In this document: in pieces, positions 49,628 to 60,202 of the stretch | Position numbering within the stretch: position 1 is the first letter of the stretch | Layout: the number at the start of each line of letters is the position of its first letter | Translations under genes and position numbers: made by a program | Assembly (NCBI GenBank): GCA_017941345.1 | Contig: JAGAWQ010000005.1 | Coordinates: 119,100 to 183,099 of the forward strand | DNA: 64,000 bases | Direction of reading: 5' to 3' | Origin: Prevotella sp. | GTDB taxonomy: Bacteria; Bacteroidota; Bacteroidia; Bacteroidales; Bacteroidaceae | Notes under the pieces: model-generated | Databases searched by the model: none | Seen by the model: the letters and a program-made list of their open reading frames with translations, nothing else | What the model was told of the DNA's origin: nothing

Positions 49628-52600
49628 TCATCCAGCCGTCTTAAATTTAAACACATCTTCTTCCTCCAAATCTGGGCGTTCAGTGACGTTTCTCACATAG
49701 TCACCTATCAGATGAATCCAGTCTTTGTGCTTCATACTGAAATACTTCTCTTGGAAGCGCTTCTGACATTCCACAGCTATATGTTCAATGGTAGTACCAT
49801 CTTCCAGTTCCATCATATTGTGTATCAGACGACGCTCGTCTGTATCTGGCAGGATTTCCGTCAGCATAGAGCCTTCTGGAATCAAGCGAGCCTCATCAGT
49901 TTTCTGCTTCTTGGCCTCACCCAGTGCACTATTCCGATAGTTCAAGTACATCGCCTTCGCCATCTCGCCCATCACTCGCTTATAGAACTGCTCATCCTCA
50001 AACAACTTGGAGAAAGCATCCATCTGTTCCATATAGCACGACTGTGCCACCTTATCAAACTCCTTGGGGAAGATACTGGTTTCAAACATTTGGGCATCAT
50101 TGTTCTTGGCTTGCTTCTTCAGCGTCTTATTGGTCTTCACCATCTTGTCGTAGATGGTTTCCACAATCACCCTGTCTGCCTCAGTGAACTTCCCTGCATA
50201 CATGATATTGATTTTCTCAATAATGTTGGTCAGCAGGTCAGTCTTCACCTCAGGTTTCTTGCCCTTTGTGCCCTTCTCAGGATTTACTTTCTTGTCCTTC
50301 TCCGTTGGTGCCAGTTCGATGGCTCCAGAGAATGTTTCCGTCAGTTTGTTGTTGATGAGTGCCAGTTTGTTGTTCAAGTCCACCTTCTGATGAGGCTTCT
50401 TCGGAATGATACGATAGAAGAATTCTGCAAAGATATACGTCTTGTACAGTTCGCGGTCGAACGTACGAACCACCTGAGCCATGTAGGCATAGAACCGGAT
50501 GAAGTTCTTCAATAGTGAGCGCACCTTGAACTGCTCATCCTCCACCAATGTCTCGTAGGCATTCAGGGCGGGTTTCAGTGCTGATGCCAACTTACCCATA
50601 TCCTTGTCACCCTGCTTCCGCTTGGCATAAAATTGATAGACTTTTTCCTCATCCTCTTCGTTCCACAGGTGATATTTCTTCAGTTCCGTATCGTATTCAT
50701 ACACCACATTTACGTCAACCACATCACTCAGCAGTGTTTCCTCAAAGAATGGCTGGAACGAGCTCTTGATATCCTCAGCCGTATTGATAAAATCCAGGAT
50801 ATAGGTGTCCGTCTTTCCCTTGTGACTGCGATTCAGTCGTGACAACGTCTGCACGGCCTTCACGCCACGCAGCTTTTTGTCGACAAACATCGTGTGCAAG
50901 AGCGGTTCGTCAAATCCTGTCTGGTATTTGTCTGCCACAATCAGCACGTTATACATATCACTGTTGAAGAACAGCGGCAACTGCTTTTCTGAAATCTTCT
51001 GCTCCTCAGAACTGTTCAGTTTACTCTCCGTATATTCCTCGCCCTGGTACTTCACCGTGCCAGAGAATGCCACCAGAGCATGCACGTCGTCATAACCCTT
51101 TTTCTTGCAGTATTCTCTTAACAGGAACAGATACCTGACGGCATGAGCCCTCGATGGTGAAACAATCATCGCCTTTGCCTGTCCGTCAATCTTAGAGAGG
51201 GTTACCTCGCGCAGTTTCTCCACCATCACTTCCACTTTCTGTTGCAGCACGAAGCCATGTTCGTCGTGATAGCGCTTGATAGCCATCGTCGCTGGTATCT
51301 CCTCAAACTCGGGATTGTCAGATACCGCTTTGGCAATCTCGTAACTCGTCTCTATCGTGGTATAGTATTTCAGCACGTCGAGAATAAAGCCTTCGTCAAT
51401 GGCTTGACGCATCGAATAGTGGTGGAAGGCATCATAAGTGCCATCGGCTTTCAACACGCCAAAGGTTTGTAGCGTCTTTGGCTTCGGGGTGGCCGTGAAG
51501 GCATAGAAGTACAGGTTTTTGTGCTTGCCCTGCGCCAACAGCGTTTCCGTCATCACGTCCATACTGTCCTTCAGCTCCTCTTCTGTCTTCTCTTCCCATG
51601 CAGCCATTTCACGCAGTGCCTCATCCGTATCAGCCAGCGCCTCTTTCAGTTTCTCGGCACTCTTGCCCGATTGTGAACTGTGCGCCTCGTCTATCACGAT
51701 GGCAAAGTTCTTCTGTGCGTGTCCGTCCAGTTCCTTGTAAATCAGTGGGAAGCGATGGATGGTCGTGATGATGATGCGCTTCTTGTCGTTGATGGCATCC
51801 TTCAGTTTCGTTGAGTTGTCGCTGTCCGTAATCGTCTCTATCTGTCCTACCTTATGGTCAAAGCCCAAGATGGTGTCCTGCAACTGATTGTTTAGAATGC
51901 GACGGTCTGTTACCACAAACACCGACTGGAACATCTCTTTGTCTTCCTTATTATGCAGTGAGGACAGCCTGTAGGTCAGCCAGGCAATTGAGTTCGACTT
52001 ACCGCTGCCTGCGCTATGCTGCAACAGATAGCTTTTGCCCTCCTTGCTTGCCTGAGTGTCCGCAATCAGTTTCTCCACCACATCCAGCTGATGATAGCGT
52101 GGGAAGATGATTGTCTCAGATGTCGTGCTCACCTTCTTTCCGTTCACCAACTTGACTTTCGTTTCCACTTGCAGGCTGATATATCGCTGCAACAAGGACA
52201 GCAGCATCTCTCGTCTCAGCACCTTCTCCCACAGATAGGCTGTAGGGTAACCGTCAGGATTTTCAGGATTACCGCCATCACCGATGTTGCCTGCCCCATT
52301 GCTGCCTTGGTTGAAGGGCAGGAAGAACGTCTGTTCTCCCTTCAATTGAGTTGTCATCACCACCTCTTCCAAGTCCACACCGAAGTAAGCCAGTATGCGA
52401 TTGTTGAACTGGAACAGCGGTTCCTTGGGGTCGCGGTCATACATATACTGGTGCTTCGAGTTCTCCACCGTCTGCCCAGTAAACTGGTTCTTCAGTTCCA
52501 GTGCAACTACAGGGATGCCGTTCACAGAAAGTACCATATCAATACTGTTCTTATTCTCTGTGGAATAGAAGAACTGGCGCGTCTCAGTCAGAATATTGGC

Positions 52601-52948
52601 CCGATATTTCTCCACCAGTTCCTCGTTCAGTCCTGATGCCGGCTCGAAATAGACAAACTTCAGCCCGATGCCTCTGTCCTTGATGCCGTTGCGCAGCACG
52701 TGAATCAGCCCGCTCTGTGCCACATTGCTTTGGAACATCTTGTAGAGTTGGTTCGAGGCTTGTTCGCCGTAAATGTTCTTGTACTTTTCCCACTGCTTCG
52801 GCTGTGTCTTCTCAATAAACTCAATGAGCACAGGCATGTCAATGGCCCGCCGCTTGTCGTAGGTCCACATATTGCCCTTCACGTAGCCGCCCTCACTCAG
52901 CAGATACGACTCAATATCTTGTTCCAGGTTTTTCTCTTTCGTTTCCAT
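49628..52948 (-). CDS. hsdR: Type I restriction endonuclease subunit R
   Basis: A 1106-residue motor and nuclease subunit. The N-terminal PD-(D/E)XK nuclease shows MVLSVNGIPVVALELKNQFTG (Asp and ELK). The translocase has Walker A QHSAGSGKSNSIAW, motif Ia FVVTDRRILNNQL, the DEAH box VIDEAHSSQSGK, FTATPKPKTL, and later ADKYQTGFDEP and SRLNRSHKGK. A C-terminal helical domain (PEKGTKGKKPEVKTDLLTNI) contacts the methylase. Start METKEKNLEQ, 5 bp after the Fic stop. It is the last gene of the operon. Confidence 0.96.
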   Translation of the reverse strand: METKEKNLEQDIESYLLSEGGYVKGNMWTYDKRRAIDMPVLIEFIEKTQPKQWEKYKNIYGEQASNQLYKMFQSNVAQSGLIHVLRNGIKDRGIGLKFVYFEPASGLNEELVEKYRANILTETRQFFYSTENKNSIDMVLSVNGIPVVALELKNQFTGQTVENSKHQYMYDRDPKEPLFQFNNRILAYFGVDLEEVVMTTQLKGEQTFFLPFNQGSNGAGNIGDGGNPENPDGYPTAYLWEKVLRREMLLSLLQRYISLQVETKVKLVNGKKVSTTSETIIFPRYHQLDVVEKLIADTQASKEGKSYLLQHSAGSGKSNSIAWLTYRLSSLHNKEDKEMFQSVFVVTDRRILNNQLQDTILGFDHKVGQIETITDSDNSTKLKDAINDKKRIIITTIHRFPLIYKELDGHAQKNFAIVIDEAHSSQSGKSAEKLKEALADTDEALREMAAWEEKTEEELKDSMDVMTETLLAQGKHKNLYFYAFTATPKPKTLQTFGVLKADGTYDAFHHYSMRQAIDEGFILDVLKYYTTIETSYEIAKAVSDNPEFEEIPATMAIKRYHDEHGFVLQQKVEVMVEKLREVTLSKIDGQAKAMIVSPSRAHAVRYLFLLREYCKKKGYDDVHALVAFSGTVKYQGEEYTESKLNSSEEQKISEKQLPLFFNSDMYNVLIVADKYQTGFDEPLLHTMFVDKKLRGVKAVQTLSRLNRSHKGKTDTYILDFINTAEDIKSSFQPFFEETLLSDVVDVNVVYEYDTELKKYHLWNEEDEEKVYQFYAKRKQGDKDMGKLASALKPALNAYETLVEDEQFKVRSLLKNFIRFYAYMAQVVRTFDRELYKTYIFAEFFYRIIPKKPHQKVDLNNKLALINNKLTETFSGAIELAPTEKDKKVNPEKGTKGKKPEVKTDLLTNIIEKINIMYAGKFTEADRVIVETIYDKMVKTNKTLKKQAKNNDAQMFETSIFPKEFDKVAQSCYMEQMDAFSKLFEDEQFYKRVMGEMAKAMYLNYRNSALGEAKKQKTDEARLIPEGSMLTEILPDTDERRLIHNMMELEDGTTIEHIAVECQKRFQEKYFSMKHKDWIHLIGDYVRNVTERPDLEEEDVFKFKTAG

Positions 52949-52953
52949 ATCGT

Positions 52954-54072
52954 TTACTCTACAAATTCCCAATAACCATTACGTTTACCATTCACTCGCT
53001 TCAGAATCTGTTTGTCTTGCAAAGCAACCGTGATTGTTTTCACAGTACGTTCCGACTTCCCTATTTCCGATGCAATTTCTTTCTGGGTAGCGTAGCGATT
53101 CTTTTGCACTATACGGAGTACGGCAACTTCTTCTAAAGTGCAATTTTTGCACTTTGGAGGCAGCTCTTCGCCTATTTTTGCACTTTTAACGTCACTATTT
53201 GCACTTTGGGGGTTATTTTCATCATCATTCTTTCCCCAATCCACATGCATGATTCTATTTCTAAGATCGTATTCTTCACCAAGCAGCATACTGCGGAAAA
53301 AACGCTCTAAGTAGATGGTGGTATCCGTAATGCCTGCAGTCAGATCATTGTAGTTTGCCCTCACAAGAGCATTGCGGAAATACCAAGAGTTTTCAGCAAA
53401 CACATCGTTTATCACATTAAATCCCAGCGTACGCAGATACTTAATCATAAACACAGCTGTTGTGCGGGTGTTTCCCTCACAGAAAGCATGTATCTGCCAG
53501 AGATTGGCACAGAAACGGGTCAGATGTTTAATGGCCTCATCAATGTTCAAGGTAGAATAATCAAACTGGCGTTCCTGTCCCAAATCATAATCAAGTGTAT
53601 CGCTGATAGTGTCATAACTGGCATAATAAACGGTCTTACCACCAAGCACCCATTCATTCTTAGTGATATTATAGTCTCGTATTCTTCCTGCCAATTTATA
53701 GATGCCGTCAAACAGTCTGCGATGAATAGAAATCAACTGCGCAGGTGTGAACGAAAAGGTCTTTTCTTCTATCAGTTCTGTGATGCGTGCAGCCACCTTG
53801 TCGGCTTCTTCTGTTCGGTCATGTTCTATTTCTTTCCGTCCTGAAGCCGATTTATAGTAGGAATCGATAAGGGCTTGTGCCTCGCCAATAGTGATGTCGC
53901 CTTCGATATGTCGTTTGGCTGTATCAAGCAGATAGTCTGATGTCTGGAGCCTATCTACCTGCTGTAAGCCAATAGCCACTTTCCACGCTTCACTACGTTC
54001 GCGCTGTTGTGGTTCACCTTGACGGATATATTCATCCAGCCCTTGAATTTTATATTTCTGTTCGTCGCTCAT
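52954..54072 (-). CDS. Fic-family protein in the restriction operon
   Basis: A 372-residue Fic protein, predicted to transfer AMP or another group to a target. The Fic loop is HAFCEGNTRTTAV (residues 195-207): catalytic His195, Phe, Glu199, Gly-Asn and Arg203 are present, but the usual Gly before Arg is Thr and the final Arg is Ala. An N-terminal EGDITIGEA segment (57-65) resembles the antitoxin strand of VbhA-like proteins. The C-terminus (305-372) is a winged helix (EIASEIGKSERTVKTITVAL), so it may bind DNA and regulate the operon. It lies 7 bp after the ApeA-like gene and 5 bp before hsdR. Fic genes are known as restriction-linked genes; their task there is unknown. Confidence 0.88.
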   Translation of the reverse strand: MSDEQKYKIQGLDEYIRQGEPQQRERSEAWKVAIGLQQVDRLQTSDYLLDTAKRHIEGDITIGEAQALIDSYYKSASGRKEIEHDRTEEADKVAARITELIEEKTFSFTPAQLISIHRRLFDGIYKLAGRIRDYNITKNEWVLGGKTVYYASYDTISDTLDYDLGQERQFDYSTLNIDEAIKHLTRFCANLWQIHAFCEGNTRTTAVFMIKYLRTLGFNVINDVFAENSWYFRNALVRANYNDLTAGITDTTIYLERFFRSMLLGEEYDLRNRIMHVDWGKNDDENNPQSANSDVKSAKIGEELPPKCKNCTLEEVAVLRIVQKNRYATQKEIASEIGKSERTVKTITVALQDKQILKRVNGKRNGYWEFVE

Positions 54073-54079
54073 GATTATA

Positions 54080-55375
54080 TTATTCTATTTCAAGTGGTAA
54101 AGAATCTATAATTTGTGATATGGGTGACAGATTACAACAAAGATTAATCTCCTTGTTCGTCAGTCCCAACATATTTAATATACAGCAAGTTAGCAGAACT
54201 TTGCATTTCTCTGTCAGCCAGTAAAGGTCATCACCCTCAACCGCCAACGATTTCTCGTCATCAGGATACAGATGGGAATACTTGTGGCGAGTATCTTTAA
54301 GGATTTCCGCATTGATTTTACACTTTTTGATAACCTCTACACCCTTAAATTGATTCAGCAAGATATCTATTTGTTCTTCATACTTTCGAACATCTCTTCC
54401 GTCCTTTTTGTTGATAAACCGTTTGTGATAGCCATCTAATGCTTGAGCAATAATCAAAAAGTCAGGCACATCAAATCGATTCTTCTTATCGAGAGAGTCT
54501 ATTAAATAACTACTTATTGGAGAAATCTTATCGTAGTTCTTATGCCATACGTTCAGCATAGGAGATAGTTTGTCCTTCAAAAGTCCAAACTTTATTAGTG
54601 AAGATTTTTCAGGATTTACCGATGCATTTTTCTTGAATAACAAAACACTCTTCCTTCCATCCTTGTAATTCTTCATTACAATCTTTGTAGGATTTTGCTC
54701 ACAATAAAGTGCAATCGACAAGAATTGTGCAAACTCCTCAACTTGTTTTGTATATGACCAGATAGATAATGGTTTAGATGTCTTGATTTCAAATTCTGTT
54801 GTCTGCGTAATAGTCAAGTCGTACATACCTCTATCTATCATCTGGTTCTGCCAAAGTCTCCAACAACACCCATCCTCATGCAAAATTTCTAATAGTTTAG
54901 TGCTTTCTAATGGCATCTTAAAATAGGTCAATGCACCAGCATTACTGTCAGTGATATTGTTATGAAAAGCCCAATTTCTCAGATATGGGAATTGAACAAT
55001 ACATTTACCGAATCGTGTATCTTCTGAACTTAAAACATGCTCCCCAACAAGTATCAATCCAACATCAAACACAGTATTGGTCATATCCCCTAAAGGCCTA
55101 TCTTGTATCACTACATTAAAAAGTGTAAAGATATGTCCATTGGCATCTCTACCCCACATTACATCATTATATTTATAATGGTGTGAATGGAAATTGCTGA
55201 GTACATGATATATCTCCAATATACTATCCTGATTCTCGTAATAAGTTAATGTACCAGTATATTTGGTTTCACTCCCCATCATTTGTTCAGGATTGAAAGC
55301 AATCATGCGAGTGTCGCGGTCAGCCACAGCTGGCACCCACCATTCACCATGAAATGTTAGAGGATGATTGTTCAT
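54080..55375 (-). CDS. ApeA-like HEPN defence protein
   Basis: A 431-residue protein. The N-terminal part, opening LTFHGEWWVPAVADRDTRM and followed by beta-rich sequence (YTGTLTYYENQD, MWGRDANGHIFTLFNVV), fits the ApeA N-terminal domain 1. The C-terminal part is helical and carries RHKYSH (Arg363-x4-His368), the RNase motif of HEPN domains. ApeA was found as a single-gene anti-phage system in screens of defence islands. Here the ATG overlaps the hsdS stop (ATGA), so it is translated with the specificity subunit. The gene is visibly more AT-rich than the housekeeping genes, a sign of transfer. RNA cleavage upon phage attack is inference. Confidence 0.75.
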   Translation of the reverse strand: MNNHPLTFHGEWWVPAVADRDTRMIAFNPEQMMGSETKYTGTLTYYENQDSILEIYHVLSNFHSHHYKYNDVMWGRDANGHIFTLFNVVIQDRPLGDMTNTVFDVGLILVGEHVLSSEDTRFGKCIVQFPYLRNWAFHNNITDSNAGALTYFKMPLESTKLLEILHEDGCCWRLWQNQMIDRGMYDLTITQTTEFEIKTSKPLSIWSYTKQVEEFAQFLSIALYCEQNPTKIVMKNYKDGRKSVLLFKKNASVNPEKSSLIKFGLLKDKLSPMLNVWHKNYDKISPISSYLIDSLDKKNRFDVPDFLIIAQALDGYHKRFINKKDGRDVRKYEEQIDILLNQFKGVEVIKKCKINAEILKDTRHKYSHLYPDDEKSLAVEGDDLYWLTEKCKVLLTCCILNMLGLTNKEINLCCNLSPISQIIDSLPLEIE

Positions 55376-56640
55376 ATCACTTCCTTTTTACCAGTTACAT
55401 ATTCGTAGATGACACTCTTCTTATATTCCTTCAATTCCGCAATCTTCTGCTGCTTAATGGCTATCAGTGAGTCGATTTCAGAACATTTTGTGTCGAGGAA
55501 GGAGGCGATGGCTTGCTGCTCATCTTTTGATGGTAACAACATCTTGAAGTTACATAATGCTGCAGCACTAAGCCCTTCTCTGTTTCCTCCTGTTTGAAGT
55601 AAAGAAACTTGATGTTGTCCTAAAGATGACTGCAAACTGTATTTCAAATACTTCGTGTCAATATCTTTAGGACGTATTATAGAAACATGCTGATTGACAT
55701 TTGCCTTTCCAAGAGTTTCATCCACATAATAACATCGTCCAATAGAGCCTCCTGTAATATTTAATAGAACATCACCAGGAAGAACTCTAGTTCCTTTCAT
55801 TTCTTTGTCAATCTTATCCGTAATATGTGCTACATCAGATAAATCCAATCCTTCGAAATAAACATTCTGACTTCTTAGGAATTTTACGCCTTCGCTAACA
55901 TAAACATTTGCACCTCCAATAGGAGTAGAACCACTTCCAATTTTGGATGTTAGAAGAGACAGTTTAACAACTTTCCACCCTTCTGGAATCTCGCCAATCC
56001 AATCAATGCCACTGTTCTTCATTGGTACGTTGGGATTTAAGCCTTTGGTGACGGCCTCGGTGATGATAGATTGCTTATAGACTTTCAGTTCCTCTATCAT
56101 CTTCTCTTGCAGGGCTATCATCTCATCGGCTTCACCACATACCTTATCCAAATAATCTGCTATCTTTTCTTGCTCAGAGAGAGGAGGGATTATGCATATG
56201 TATTCATCAATGTATTTTGAATTCATGTGAGGTATCGTTGTTCCATTCACCTTGCTTTTGAAAAAAGGCTCAGCATTTTTTAGTAGATAATACAAATATT
56301 GATTATTAAACCTACTATCATTACAAGAATATTTTACAGTGGTAGAAGAAACAACACCATCACAGCCATTTGCTACAATTCCTGCATTAGCACCATCCCA
56401 AAGAATTAGTATATCTATTGGAGAACAAATAGGAACATTTAAATCTAAGGTATATGTCCTATATTCTTTACCTAACATTTCTGATGCTCCAATTATGGGC
56501 AATCCTTTATTCTCATTATTTTGATCTTTTGGAAGTTTTCCTTTTACAAAAGTACCTATATATTTATATTTACCGAATTCCCACTCCTTCGGAATCAGCC
56601 CAATCCACTCGATGCCGCTATCTTTATATTCTCTTGCCAT
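55372..56640 (-). CDS. hsdS: Type I restriction specificity subunit S
   Basis: A 422-residue subunit with two target-recognition halves. The first opens YKDSGIEWIGLIPKEW and ends in the helix EKMIEELKVYKQSIITEAVT; the second opens MKNSGIDWIGEIPEGWKVVK and ends QQKIAELKEYKKSVIYEYVT. The paired opening and helix show the internal duplication typical of HsdS, so a bipartite target is expected. Its sequence cannot be predicted here. It is AT-rich compared with hsdM and hsdR. No second hsdS or recombinase is nearby, so no sign of shuffling. Confidence 0.95.
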   Translation of the reverse strand: MAREYKDSGIEWIGLIPKEWEFGKYKYIGTFVKGKLPKDQNNENKGLPIIGASEMLGKEYRTYTLDLNVPICSPIDILILWDGANAGIVANGCDGVVSSTTVKYSCNDSRFNNQYLYYLLKNAEPFFKSKVNGTTIPHMNSKYIDEYICIIPPLSEQEKIADYLDKVCGEADEMIALQEKMIEELKVYKQSIITEAVTKGLNPNVPMKNSGIDWIGEIPEGWKVVKLSLLTSKIGSGSTPIGGANVYVSEGVKFLRSQNVYFEGLDLSDVAHITDKIDKEMKGTRVLPGDVLLNITGGSIGRCYYVDETLGKANVNQHVSIIRPKDIDTKYLKYSLQSSLGQHQVSLLQTGGNREGLSAAALCNFKMLLPSKDEQQAIASFLDTKCSEIDSLIAIKQQKIAELKEYKKSVIYEYVTGKKEVI

Positions 56641-56644
56641 CGTC

Positions 56645-57397
56645 TCAGTCCTCCTTGTTTTTCAGTCGTTCTATCTCCTGTTGTTGCTGCTGGTAGGCAT
56701 TGAGGGCACGTTGCTTCAGCTCCTCGTACTTGGCTTTCCACTCTGCCGCCTCGACTTGCGCCTGCGCCAGTTGCTGCTGCAAGGCCGGGACGGACTGTTC
56801 CAGTGCTGCGAGGCGGGCATCCTGCTGAGTGCGATAGCCGGTGCGGGCAGCGTGCATACGCTCCTTAATGCCCCCTTCGGTGACGAAGGTGTGCTCCAAC
56901 TTATCCAGGTATTTGTTCATCATCGTGTCTATCTGGAAGCACATCGTCAAGCCGACGTTTGCTATCTCCTCTGCAGACCACTTATAGAAAAACGGCTCAT
57001 AATCAGCCAGACGGTTGTGCGCCTTCGTGAAGTCTTGCATAGGTTGGTAGCGCTCGTCACCAACTTTCCACTGGCGCAGCCGTCTGGACTTCAGGTAGTC
57101 CTCATAGTCCTGCCGCAGTTCTCCGATACTAGACCGCGCCACATTGAGCAGGTCTATCTCCATCTGCGTAGAGGTCTTGCCGTCCTCACTCCCCTCGACG
57201 ATGTTCTGCTTGCCCGAACGGGCCGCCTGAACCATTTGATCCACCGTCCGGTCGCCATACTGTGGCAAGAACCGCTCGCAGAAGACGTAGGTCATCTGAT
57301 AGAGTGTCTCCGACTTCTGATAGAACCAGAGGTCCTGCCATTTCGCTACCTTGCGGAAGATGCTCTTGAAGGGCTTGTGGTCGTCATTGCTTGCCAT
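56645..57397 (-). CDS. Four-helix-bundle protein with suffix domain and coiled coil
   Basis: A 250-residue protein between hsdM and hsdS. Residues about 20-120 look like an S23/Avd-type four-helix bundle (VDQMVQAARSGKQNIVEGSE is the diagnostic turn between helices, then LNVARSSIGELRQDYEDYL). Residues 120-190 form a suffix (KWSAEEIANVGLTMCFQID), and 190-250 a Gln-rich coiled coil (ALEQSVPALQQQLAQAQ, YQQQQQEIERL). Relatives include the Avd accessory factor of diversity-generating retroelements, but no reverse transcriptase or variable repeat is seen here. The gene starts 78 bp after hsdM and ends 4 bp before hsdS, so it is an integral part of the operon. Function unknown; perhaps it binds nucleic acid or the S subunit. 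Confidence 0.75.
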   Translation of the reverse strand: MASNDDHKPFKSIFRKVAKWQDLWFYQKSETLYQMTYVFCERFLPQYGDRTVDQMVQAARSGKQNIVEGSEDGKTSTQMEIDLLNVARSSIGELRQDYEDYLKSRRLRQWKVGDERYQPMQDFTKAHNRLADYEPFFYKWSAEEIANVGLTMCFQIDTMMNKYLDKLEHTFVTEGGIKERMHAARTGYRTQQDARLAALEQSVPALQQQLAQAQVEAAEWKAKYEELKQRALNAYQQQQQEIERLKNKED

Positions 57398-57438
57398 TGT
57401 TTCTCGTTTCTTTTGTTCTATTTTGTTCGTAATAGTTG

Positions 57439-57475
57439 CTATAGATGCTATAGATTTCTATAGATTCTATAGATT
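57439..57475. repeat. 9-bp tandem repeat between hsdM and the four-helix-bundle gene
   Basis: CTATAGATG, CTATAGATT, (T) CTATAGATT, CTATAGATT: four units with the palindrome CTATAG, ending at the hsdM stop. Confidence 0.85.
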
Positions 57476-59272
57476 CTATCCTTTCTGCCTCCCCATGATT
57501 TTAGCCATTAGTGCACTCTCTTGATGCTCTAACTCTTGCAAGTGGGCGAAGATTTCCTCGCTCTTGCGGGGTGCAACGTATTTATAGAACTCACGGGTGA
57601 AGGGTATCTCGTAGCCAGTCTTGTTGTTCTTTTCGTCAATCCATGCATCGGGGGCATAGGGATAGACGTTGGCCTGCATATAGGCTTCGATGTCCTGCTT
57701 GAAGGGGATGTTCTCCGTATCCTTCAGGCTCTTGTCGGGCTGAGGCTTGCCTTTTTTCAGAATGGGGTTGCCCTGCTCGTCGCGCAGTGGGCGCTCAACG
57801 GTGACCTTGGTATATTTGAAGTCGTCGCAGTCCTTTACCTTGCTTTCCACTACCAGTTCGCCATCCTCATAGACACCATCCTTAAAGGCCATATAGGCAC
57901 GGCTGATCAGACTGATGCAACGGTCGGTAAACTCGTTGCGCTTGTTGCCCAATGACTTACGGCGTTTCTCGCAGCACTTGCTGGCATCAATCAACTGCAC
58001 CTTGCCTGTGCGCTCAGCAGCCTTGTCCTTGGTGACTATCCAGATGTAGGTGGCAATACCCGTGTTGTAGAACATATCATTGGGAATCTGCACGATAGCC
58101 TCCAGCCAGTCGTTATCCAACAGATAGCCACGAATGTTGCTCTCGCCACTGCCCGCATCGCCCTTGAACAGCGGCGAACCGTTCTGGATAATCGCCATAC
58201 GGCCGCCCGATTGGTGCTCACCATCGGGCTCTTTCAGTTTGGCAATGCCGTTGAGCATGAAGAGCTGCTGACTGTCGCCAATAGCGGGCAAGCCTGGGGC
58301 AAAGCGTCCCATGTCGCCACGCTTGTGCTCATCCTCAACGGCTTTCTTCTCGTTCTTCCACTCTATGCCAAAGGGTGGGTTGGAGATGATATAGTCGAAG
58401 GTGTAGCCTTCAAACTTGTCATCGCTCAGGGTGTTGCCGTGACGCATATTCTCGGCATCGCCACCCTTGATGAGCACGTTGGCTTTAGCAATAGCGAAGG
58501 TCTGTTCGTTCAGTTCCTGTCCGAACTCGGTGATTTGTGCCTCAGGGTCTATCTCCAGCAGCTTCTCACTCAGGCAGTCGAGCATCTGACTCGTACCCAT
58601 CGCCATATCATAGACGGTAGCCGTCACGCCCTCTTCCTCCAACTGCTCACGCTGTGGAGCCACCAGCAGTTCGGTCATCATATAGATGATGTCGCGAGCT
58701 GTAAAGTGGGCTCCTGCCTGTTCGTCATAACTCTCAGAGAATTTGCGCACGAGTTCTTCGAAGATGTAACCCATATCTACAGCACTGATTTCGTCGGCTC
58801 CCATATAGGCTTTCTTCGAGCAGAACTCCTGAATGACGTTATAGAGAATTCCGTTATGGTCGAGTTTGGTTATCTCCTTATCGAAGTCGAACTTCTCAAT
58901 AATATCGACTACATTCTCAGAGAAATGATTGAGGTAACTGCGGAAGTTGTCGGCTATGTTATCGGCATCGCTCAGCAGTCCCTCAAACGTAAAGGGCGAG
59001 ACGTTGTAGAAATCATAGCCAGAGGCTGTTGTCAGGAATCCTTTACGCACAGCCAAACCACGCTGTTCACAAAGAGCATTGGCATCCAGCACCTTCTGCT
59101 TGGTAGGTGCAAGGGTGTCGGAGAAGCGCTTGATGACACACATGGGCAGGATGACGTTGCCATACTCATGGGGCTTATACGTTCCCACCAGTTTATCGGC
59201 AATCGCCCAAATCAGGTTTGCCTTCTCTTGTATATTGACGGTAGTCCGTTTTTGCAATTCTTCAGTTGACAT
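57476..59272 (-). CDS. hsdM: Type I restriction methylase subunit M
   Basis: A 598-residue N6-adenine methylase. The N-terminal helical domain contains LIWAIADKLVGTYKPHEYG; motif IV is ISNPPFGIEW (Asn-Pro-Pro-Phe); motif I is VYDMAMGTSQML, a variant of the usual DPxxGSG. HFTARDIIYMMTELL precedes motif I as in all HsdM. It methylates the site defined by hsdS and protects the host. First gene of the operon, behind a clear promoter. Confidence 0.96.
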   Translation of the reverse strand: MSTEELQKRTTVNIQEKANLIWAIADKLVGTYKPHEYGNVILPMCVIKRFSDTLAPTKQKVLDANALCEQRGLAVRKGFLTTASGYDFYNVSPFTFEGLLSDADNIADNFRSYLNHFSENVVDIIEKFDFDKEITKLDHNGILYNVIQEFCSKKAYMGADEISAVDMGYIFEELVRKFSESYDEQAGAHFTARDIIYMMTELLVAPQREQLEEEGVTATVYDMAMGTSQMLDCLSEKLLEIDPEAQITEFGQELNEQTFAIAKANVLIKGGDAENMRHGNTLSDDKFEGYTFDYIISNPPFGIEWKNEKKAVEDEHKRGDMGRFAPGLPAIGDSQQLFMLNGIAKLKEPDGEHQSGGRMAIIQNGSPLFKGDAGSGESNIRGYLLDNDWLEAIVQIPNDMFYNTGIATYIWIVTKDKAAERTGKVQLIDASKCCEKRRKSLGNKRNEFTDRCISLISRAYMAFKDGVYEDGELVVESKVKDCDDFKYTKVTVERPLRDEQGNPILKKGKPQPDKSLKDTENIPFKQDIEAYMQANVYPYAPDAWIDEKNNKTGYEIPFTREFYKYVAPRKSEEIFAHLQELEHQESALMAKIMGRQKG

Positions 59273-59311: not shown

Positions 59312-59342
59312 CAAAGTTATGAAATAAATGACTGTAATCCAA
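59312..59342 (-). promoter_or_regulatory. Promoter of the restriction-defence operon
   Basis: Minus-strand TTG (59340-59342), 20 bp, TAACTTTG (59312-59319), 39 bp before the hsdM ATG. The remaining gap to 59476 is AT-rich and holds nothing else I recognise. Confidence 0.65.
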
Positions 59343-59476: not shown

Positions 59477-60202
59477 TTAAAATCTCGGATCGGTCAGACC
59501 GCCATAGCTGTCGGCTGCGGTCTCCAAGGCATCCTCCGTGGTGTACTGCTTGTACAGCGTACAACGGGTGACGATGGTCTGTGGCGAACAGCGTTCACCC
59601 TTCACCAGCACCAGCGCCCAGCCCTTCATGTCGTCGGCAAACTCCTCGTCCTTCAGCACATAGTGGCCGTCCACCAGCGTCACCTCTTCCCAGGGCACCT
59701 CGCGCTTGCTGAACCGCACCAAAGCGTCACGGTCACTACCCGTCTGGACGGCCGTATAGAGCCACAGCTTCGTCCAAGGCTCCCAGTCGTGTGCCTTGAG
59801 GTCGGTAATCAGGGCCGGCACTCCGTCTACTTCGCCCAGCAGCTGTTTGACTTCCGGCAGTGTGCCGTCGCTCACGGGTATGCCTGGCATCAGGAATGAC
59901 GTCCGTTCCATCAATACCTTTTCAACATACACCACGGGCAACTGGTTGGCCAGCGACAGGAAGTTGTTGTAAGCCGTTGACCCTTTGGTAAACATCGGCT
60001 TGCAATACTTCAGCATCCTCCACAACGCCACGGAATGGCGCATCTTCTGACGCTGGATAAACTGGGGCAGCGTATTGCTGCGCCGCTCCATCGAGTTGGC
60101 CGACCGGATAATCAGCCGCCCCTGCTTCATGTAGGTCGTAATGCCGTCCTTACGCATACTGCCTACCACCATCAGTCCCTTGCCTGTTCCTTTTCTTTTC
60201 AT
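59477..60202 (-). CDS. Conserved-looking protein of unknown function
   Basis: A 241-residue protein that I do not recognise. It has no signal peptide or membrane segment and begins very basic (MKRKGTGKGLMVVGSMRKDG), with SNTLPQFIQRQKMRHSV following. The layout (a Gly/Lys-rich strand pair, then QRQKMRHSVALWRML) recalls Bacteroidetes DUF6266 proteins, but I cannot confirm this. The C-terminal half (VKQLLGEVDGVPALITDL, VPWEEVTLVDGHYVLK) looks globular. Two arrays of 11-bp repeats lie upstream of its ATG, the nearer one within 30 bp. Confidence 0.55.
   Translation of the reverse strand: MKRKGTGKGLMVVGSMRKDGITTYMKQGRLIIRSANSMERRSNTLPQFIQRQKMRHSVALWRMLKYCKPMFTKGSTAYNNFLSLANQLPVVYVEKVLMERTSFLMPGIPVSDGTLPEVKQLLGEVDGVPALITDLKAHDWEPWTKLWLYTAVQTGSDRDALVRFSKREVPWEEVTLVDGHYVLKDEEFADDMKGWALVLVKGERCSPQTIVTRCTLYKQYTTEDALETAADSYGGLTDPRF

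Follow-up and report, generated by a model that had tools for sequence, protein, structure and literature searches.

A clade of ApeA-family HEPN proteins found in the hsdS-hsdR gap of Bacteroidales type I restriction operons

What does a gene for a putative RNase do inside a type I restriction-modification (R-M) operon? The question is raised by a stretch of 64,000 nucleotides from Prevotella sp. (GenBank assembly GCA_017941345.1, contig JAGAWQ010000005.1, positions 119,100 to 183,099 of the forward strand), called the window below; the assembly has 2.05 Mb and is 60% complete. On the minus strand of the window, a gene of the ApeA family (apeA, 54080..55375, 431 residues) lies in the gap, or slot, between hsdS and hsdR. 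The classic RNase guard of a restriction enzyme is PrrC, and the original prediction for this locus was a guard of the same kind. The clade to which this ApeA belongs was found in Bacteroidales, in the searches made, only in the hsdS-hsdR slot.

Domains and catalytic motif

The window protein is a true two-domain ApeA, as had been predicted. Pfam finds ApeA_NTD1 at residues 9-277 (89.1 bits against a cut-off of 25.5, E 4.5e-25) and HEPN_Apea at about 307-408 (52.2 bits against a curated cut-off of 24.4, E 1.1e-13). These are the only domains that Pfam finds, and no NTPase domain is among them. The protein also matches the PADLOC entries PDC-S58 and Cas13-ApeA. PDCs are putative candidate systems detected via 'guilt by embedding' (PMC12988326, extract), and PDC-S58 has been predicted, among other systems, in one strain of S. 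thermophilus (PMC11514479, extract).

The motif RHKYSH occupies residues 363-368. Its R-x4-H pair (R363 and H368) is a signature of catalytic HEPN RNases (PMC3710099, extract). The original prediction depended on conservation of this pair, and the pair is kept in all 11 full-length members of the clade and in 7/7 of a wider set. The second position of the motif is H, D or N across the clade.

One clade, one slot

Relatives of the window ApeA were sought with a two-sequence ApeA alignment against 84,980 genomes, one per species, a search that is blind to R-M genes. It returned nine relatives at 54-77% identity, from records titled Bacteroidales, Bacteroidia or Prevotella. The hsdS of a type I system lies upstream of apeA in 9/9, and hsdR lies downstream in all eight whose contig continues. 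The ninth (L058) is matched by a 24-residue end only and is cut by the contig end, so that it counts for hsdS alone. The gene order on which the guard proposal rested therefore recurs. A survey of hsdR added two members, L091 (67%) and L114 (54%), for a total of 12 with the window. Three contigs carry two labels (L055 = L029, L050 = L089 and L057 = L090). No member was found outside the slot in the genome contigs, viral contigs, plasmids or phages searched, with contig scans limited to sequences that bear a few short peptide motifs.

The clade sits in two kinds of R-M system. Type A comprises the window, L050, L051, L054, L057, L058 and L091; type B comprises L052, L053, L055, L056 and L114. 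Between the types, HsdM is about 41% and HsdR about 35% identical. In all 11 members with a complete locus, the open reading frames (ORFs) of hsdM, hsdS and hsdR are of normal length.

Within the slot, the place of apeA varies. It follows hsdS directly in 6/12 members (window, L051, L052, L056, L058 and L114), and one gene intervenes in the other six (L050, L053, L054, L055, L057 and L091). The intervening gene is AbiH in L054, a 71% relative of it in L091, PIN-like in L053 and L055, and of unknown kind in L050 and L057. An ATGA overlap between hsdS and apeA is present in only five members (window, L051, L052, L056 and L058), while L114 has a 6-bp gap. Translation coupling to hsdS, proposed earlier as a device that fixes the ratio of ApeA to the complex, is thus not conserved in the clade and finds no support here.

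Two further genes recur near these loci. In two loci of type B (L052 11320-15021 and L056 11317-15018), ApeA is followed by a protein of 1233 residues, whose L052 copy has no Pfam match. ATPases of the AAA_15/AAA_21 kind are found repeatedly next to ApeA or close to it, in R-M contexts that are not related to each other, several with a partner of about 200 residues. They lie at 11372-13243 in L055, with counterparts in L052, L053 and L056, and, beside more distant ApeAs, at 11019-12715 in L027, 10950-12837 in L031 and 5780-7603 in L043. No such ATPase is present in the L114 locus.

ApeA outside the clade

As a control, 22 other Bacteroidota loci with ApeA_NTD1 were taken, seven from a 393-genome order sample and 15 from a 395-genome phylum sample. 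Custom HsdM/S/R models miss diverged systems, and counts are hence given as 'in the hsdS-hsdR gap'. That gap holds one of the 22 (L027) and 21 lie elsewhere, where hsd genes may be missed: five of the loci are on stretches shorter than 10 kb, and L035, L037, L047 and L049 have ApeA near one end. The ApeA of L027 (8705-10093) lies on the opposite strand to its neighbours hsdS and hsdR.

R-M genes are found near some of the other distant ApeAs. The distance is 3.2 kb to an hsdM in L033 and 3.6 kb to a pair of hsdM and hsdS in L043. In four loci, a same-strand R-M gene identified by Pfam adjoins ApeA. Three of these genes encode Eco57I/TaqI_C-type (type IIG-like) enzymes (L030 1070-5704, L031 5674-10263 and L038 9177-13899), and the fourth encodes an N6/N4 DNA methylase (L039 9353-11932). 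The Eco57I-type ORF of L031 (5674-9474) has a match to the IS200-like transposase domain Y1_Tnp within its methylase region.

The guard proposal would be weakened by ApeA-like genes that stand mostly alone, and here the answer is mixed. The family at large is mostly outside type I gaps, while at least 7/22 of its loci are near an R-M gene of some type (a lower bound, from Pfam scans of 21 of the 108 listed neighbour ORFs) and the window's clade was found in the gap only. The ApeA family at large has some tie to R-M systems; what sets this clade apart is its place between hsdS and hsdR.

Other occupants of the slot

The contents of the slot were surveyed by way of HsdR relatives, drawn from 301 genomes of the family, 398 of the genus and 393 of the order, samples that partly overlap. 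There are 57 HsdR-anchored loci, of which 54 have both hsdS and hsdR and three have no hsdS in reach. Cargo, defined as at least one same-strand ORF of at least 100 residues, is present in 29 of the 54; a scripted count gave 30, from which L161 was removed, being a piece of hsdR. ApeA occupies five of the 54 slots and Fic of the window's kind also five, the window locus having both. The other cargo comprises other Fic proteins, RhuM, AbiH, GmrSD-like, KilA-N, PIN, AAA_15, YhcG/PDDEXK, NO VEIN C-terminal, AAA/DUF4143 and unknowns. Variable cargo between a conserved hsdS and hsdR is the mark of defence genes embedded in a type I gap, and it is what the survey finds, with cargo from many unrelated families.

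ApeA is optional even among close relatives of the window system. Eight systems have an HsdR at least 87% identical to that of the window, its own included, and apeA is present in four of them (the window's own, G922, G886 and G892). The other four have different cargo or none (G1189, G1267, G1134 and G1169). Left out of the survey matches were G891 (a 403-residue fragment), G236 (the same as L055, and ApeA-positive), and G366 and G209 (contig ends). The dependence is thus one-sided: R-M systems can do without ApeA, and every ApeA of the clade that was found has an R-M system beside it.

The neighbouring fic gene (52954..54072, minus strand, 372 residues) provides a contrast. Its product has a Pfam Fic domain and a winged helix, and matches the PADLOC candidate PDC-S72 over nearly its full length. 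The canonical motif of Fic AMP-transferases is HxFx[DE]GNGRxxR. The window protein has HAFCEGNTR, and all five slot Fic proteins aligned (window, L099, L110, L115 and L155) have HxFxEGNTR in place of the canonical GNGR form.

Among 54 R-M-bearing genomes there are 13 relatives of this Fic at 48-57% identity, and the hsdS-hsdR gap holds four of them (G960, G924, G975 and G1387). Two of the nine outside the gap are near other R-M genes: that of L194 is beside an N6_Mtase/Methylase_S pair, and that of L196 is about 0.6 kb from a cluster of helicase/PLD and Eco57I-methylase genes. For the remaining seven, the custom models find no hsd gene in the fetched flanks; L191 and L198, two of the 13, are near a contig end. 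Four weaker rows (35-37%) and one at 42% (L199, without an hsd gene by the custom models) are outside the count.

Since 9/13 close relatives of Fic lie outside the gap, the slot does not by itself hold its guests. The ApeA clade is unusually faithful to it, in a comparison whose trials are not independent: the clade members are related to one another, and the ApeA and Fic searches differ in method. The window Fic is a separate and less faithful passenger of the slot, and the suggestion that it is a second guard toxin of this restriction system was not borne out.

Exchange of ApeA alleles

The ApeA of these operons varies more than the HsdM and HsdR around it. Within type A, mean identity is 58% for ApeA, 93% for HsdM and 86% for HsdR. 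The two parts of ApeA differ as well, with a mean of 50% for the N-terminal domain (NTD, residues 1-300) and 76% for the HEPN part. Ratios of nonsynonymous to synonymous substitution (dN/dS, NG86 method) were taken where computable among four pairs. They are 0.18-0.26 for the NTD (split at 260; three pairs), 0.09-0.19 for the HEPN part (two pairs), 0.06-0.10 for HsdR (three pairs) and 0.02-0.04 for HsdM (four pairs).

ApeA alleles have been exchanged on the same HsdM/HsdR core. L055 and L056 have HsdM (dS 0.27) and HsdR (dS 0.22) in common, and at synonymous sites their ApeA genes are close to saturation or beyond it (pS 0.78-0.85). Conversely, L052 and L053 share ApeA (93%) and do not share HsdS (38%). 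In guanine-cytosine (GC) content, hsdS (32-41%) and apeA (31-40%) are low across all 11 loci against hsdM (42-55%) and hsdR (42-54%).

A proposed back-up RNase with its own sensor

How can fidelity to the slot be reconciled with exchange of the protein itself? We hold it to be about an even call that the ApeA-like protein is a slot-dedicated HEPN endoribonuclease with its NTD as an infection sensor. Going by its motif, it would be a metal-independent endoRNase (PMC3710099, extract), presumably silent in healthy cells. When a phage gets past restriction, ApeA would cut RNA and the infected cell would be stopped (abortive infection). The trigger would act through the fast-changing NTD, which may sense a phage protein or a phage-caused state.

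Four lines of evidence favour a sensor of this kind. The NTD is variable on a near-constant HsdM and HsdR; alleles have been swapped on one core; the same architecture is found outside type I gaps; and there are precedents in TgvAB and Tha. TgvAB does not need the restriction activity of HsdR (PMC11411939), and Tha is triggered by tail proteins, directly or indirectly (PMC11087260).

A number of results weigh against it. Occurrence in the slot only is the pattern expected of an R-M-dependent protein, and Fic shows that the slot alone does not confine its guests. The R-M neighbours of at least 7/22 distant ApeAs count on the same side, as do the four that lie directly beside a type IIG-like enzyme or a DNA methylase (L030, L031, L038 and L039). 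In L052/L053, the closest pair, the proportion of nonsynonymous differences (pN) is higher in the HEPN part (0.053) than in the NTD (0.022). R-M type changes twice on the ApeA tree against 4.0 times with shuffled labels, and a single change is not rejected. Identity within types exceeds identity between types by a margin that only 2 of the 462 labelings reach, and the observed labeling is one of those two. From these tree changes and labelings, together with the allele swaps, ApeA is exchanged within an R-M type and has crossed rarely between the two. Finally, TgvAB alone gives 10- to 100-fold less protection than the whole cluster against several phages (PMC11411939).

Alternative explanations

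The strongest alternative is the guard RNase of the original prediction, a possibility to be taken seriously. The restriction complex would keep ApeA inactive, and a phage anti-restriction protein would free it, upon which RNA would be cut as by a PrrC without the NTPase. Parts of that proposal hold: the ApeA is real, its R-x4-H pair is invariant, the association with the gap was 9/9 in a search blind to R-M genes, and hsdM, hsdS and hsdR are of normal length wherever the locus is complete. The clade occurs in two R-M families and in the slot only, in contrast to Fic (4/13) and to the distant ApeAs (1/22), which themselves have R-M neighbours in part. One-sided dependence is also what a guard would give, with no clade ApeA found without R-M and half of the window-type systems without ApeA. 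ApeA lineages mostly keep one R-M type, and PrrC is a precedent.

Other parts of the proposal fare less well. The NTD is the obvious docking part, and yet its mean identity in type A is 50%, on cores in which HsdM and HsdR stand at 93% and 86%. ApeA alleles were exchanged on one core in L055/L056, there is no NTPase domain, and the coupling to hsdS is not conserved. Homologous exchange through the conserved hsdM and hsdR flanks could, moreover, confine the gene to the slot without any functional need. On balance, an ApeA with its own sensor is somewhat more likely than a guard held by the restriction complex. A stricter form of the guard proposal is less likely than not. In it, the ApeAs of the Bacteroidales clade would be guard RNases under obligate R-M gating in two distantly related type I families, having arisen independently of PrrC as its counterpart without an NTPase, and their NTD would read the state of the complex.

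ApeA might instead be a pure hitchhiker, which we consider improbable. The slot would be a recombination hot spot, and ApeA would be kept there by recombination of the flanks with no link beyond shared transcription. The varying contents of the slot and the low GC of hsdS and apeA in all 11 loci agree with this, and in other bacteria a possible recombination hotspot has been seen in this site (PMC12255303, extract). However, Fic is equally frequent in the slot (5/54 each) and yet lies mostly outside it, so that free movement does not give 9/9. A jump between types A and B, with HsdR at about 35% identity, cannot use homologous flanks, and the motif-limited scans of genome contigs, viral contigs, plasmids and phages gave no member outside the slot. 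It is less probable still that ApeA is a restriction accessory, such as a regulator or an RNA-binding subunit, rather than an RNase effector: tight packing of the operon and a place directly next to hsdS in 6/12 members would suit this, but the R-x4-H pair is invariant and half of the window-type systems do without ApeA.

The clade is a good test object for deciding between an own sensor and a guard. All finds are in the slot, two diverged R-M families are involved, and Fic provides a built-in contrast. Pairs with different ApeAs on almost identical HsdM and HsdR also exist in nature, L055/L056 among them.

The operon in the window

The window operon consists of six minus-strand genes, and all of them were found at the places and in the order first described. 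It begins with hsdM (57476..59272, 598 residues), whose product has HsdM_N and N6_Mtase domains and matches PADLOC MTase_I (3.7e-227). The second gene (56645..57397, 250 residues) encodes a four-helix-bundle protein with a '4helix suffix' domain; NCBIfam TIGR02436 and TIGR04258 score above cut-off, and Pfam 23S_rRNA_IVP slightly below. It is followed by hsdS (55372..56640, 422 residues, Methylase_S), apeA and fic. The last gene is hsdR (49628..52948), with 1106 residues from its ATG, or 1114 from an alternative TTG start at 52972. HsdR has HSDR_N, SWI2_SNF2 and T1R_D3-like domains, and in the PDB its only relatives at E <= 0.001 are five HsdR sequences of type I systems, one of them named EcoR124II. 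With hsdM, hsdS and hsdR carrying their family domains in one locus, this is a type I R-M system. The arrangement is not due to chance, because it is repeated in relatives from other species.

Packing is tight from the four-helix gene onward, again as described. Read off the sequence, the junctions are 78 bp between hsdM and the four-helix gene, 4 bp between the latter and hsdS, the 4-bp ATGA overlap of hsdS and apeA, 7 bp between apeA and fic, and 5 bp between fic and the ATG of hsdR. The claim of a single promoter is plausible only. One match to TTG-N20-TAACTTTG, which we take to be the Bacteroidetes-type promoter consensus, lies at 59312..59342 on the minus strand, 39 bp upstream of hsdM, and no second match is present on the minus strand of the operon. 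The pattern is expected about once per 10 kb of one strand anyway, and it has 14 matches over both strands of the window.

Some further features of the operon can be noted. Four CTATAG palindromes spaced by 9-10 bp lie inside the 78-bp gap (57444-57472, minus strand). CTATAG occurs 16 times in the whole window, and the cluster could be a regulator site or a variable repeat. An ORF of 241 residues without a Pfam match (59477-60202) precedes the operon on the same strand. In the window, GC content is 36-37% in hsdS and apeA (54080-56640) and higher, at 48-56%, in hsdM, the four-helix gene and hsdR. The four-helix gene changes position between loci: it is in the hsdM-hsdS interval in the window and in L149 (4982-5677), and in the hsdS-hsdR interval in L150 (3448-4137).

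Comparison with known systems

Much of the setting is already known, namely ApeA in R-M operons, the idea of PrrC-like gating and defence genes embedded in such operons. In epsilonproteobacteria, an earlier HEPN survey records ApeA inside R-M operons (Anantharaman et al. 2013, PMC3710099). In the extracts of that paper, at least 16 HEPN clades are linked to R-M systems, PrrC-like gating is proposed for R-M-linked HEPN proteins, and neighbourhoods of R-M, RloC-like and Doc genes are described as three-level defence. Gao et al. 2020 also count ApeA as an antiviral system, according to extracts of a commentary (PMC7699616). No paper on the Bacteroidales arrangement was found among open-licence PMC papers. 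New here are the slot-faithful clade, its controls and the exchange of alleles.

The window protein has the same two domains in the same order as the ApeA family (PF18862 ApeA_NTD1 and PF18739 HEPN_Apea), and the same R-x4-H pair. The difference lies in location, since the clade was found in the hsdS-hsdR gap only, whereas 21/22 other Bacteroidota loci are not in it and some are beside type IIG-like enzymes.

PrrC, encoded at EcoprrI (PMC3874165 and PMC12707154, extracts), is likewise a HEPN-family RNase whose gene is embedded in a type I operon, as apeA is in the window. PrrC has an ABC-type NTPase, however, where Pfam finds ApeA_NTD1 in the window protein. As an anticodon nuclease, PrrC cuts tRNA-Lys in its anticodon loop.

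Defence cargo between the type I hsdS and hsdR is also found in enteropathogenic Escherichia coli (EPEC). There, in the RRDM island, DarTG2 occupies this site, and the site is called a potential recombination hotspot (PMC12255303, extract). DarTG2 differs in that it is a toxin-antitoxin pair that ADP-ribosylates DNA, and a dedicated repressor gene is part of its island (same extract). In V. cholerae, the two defence genes of TgvAB are embedded in a type I operon (PMC11411939), a case that has also been reviewed (PMC12409362, extract). Finally, neighbourhoods with RloC-like HEPN, DOC/Fic and R-M genes (PMC3710099, extract) bring together the same three elements as the window. The HEPN protein is an ABC-HEPN fusion in those neighbourhoods; in the window it is an ApeA, with Fic as a loose associate.

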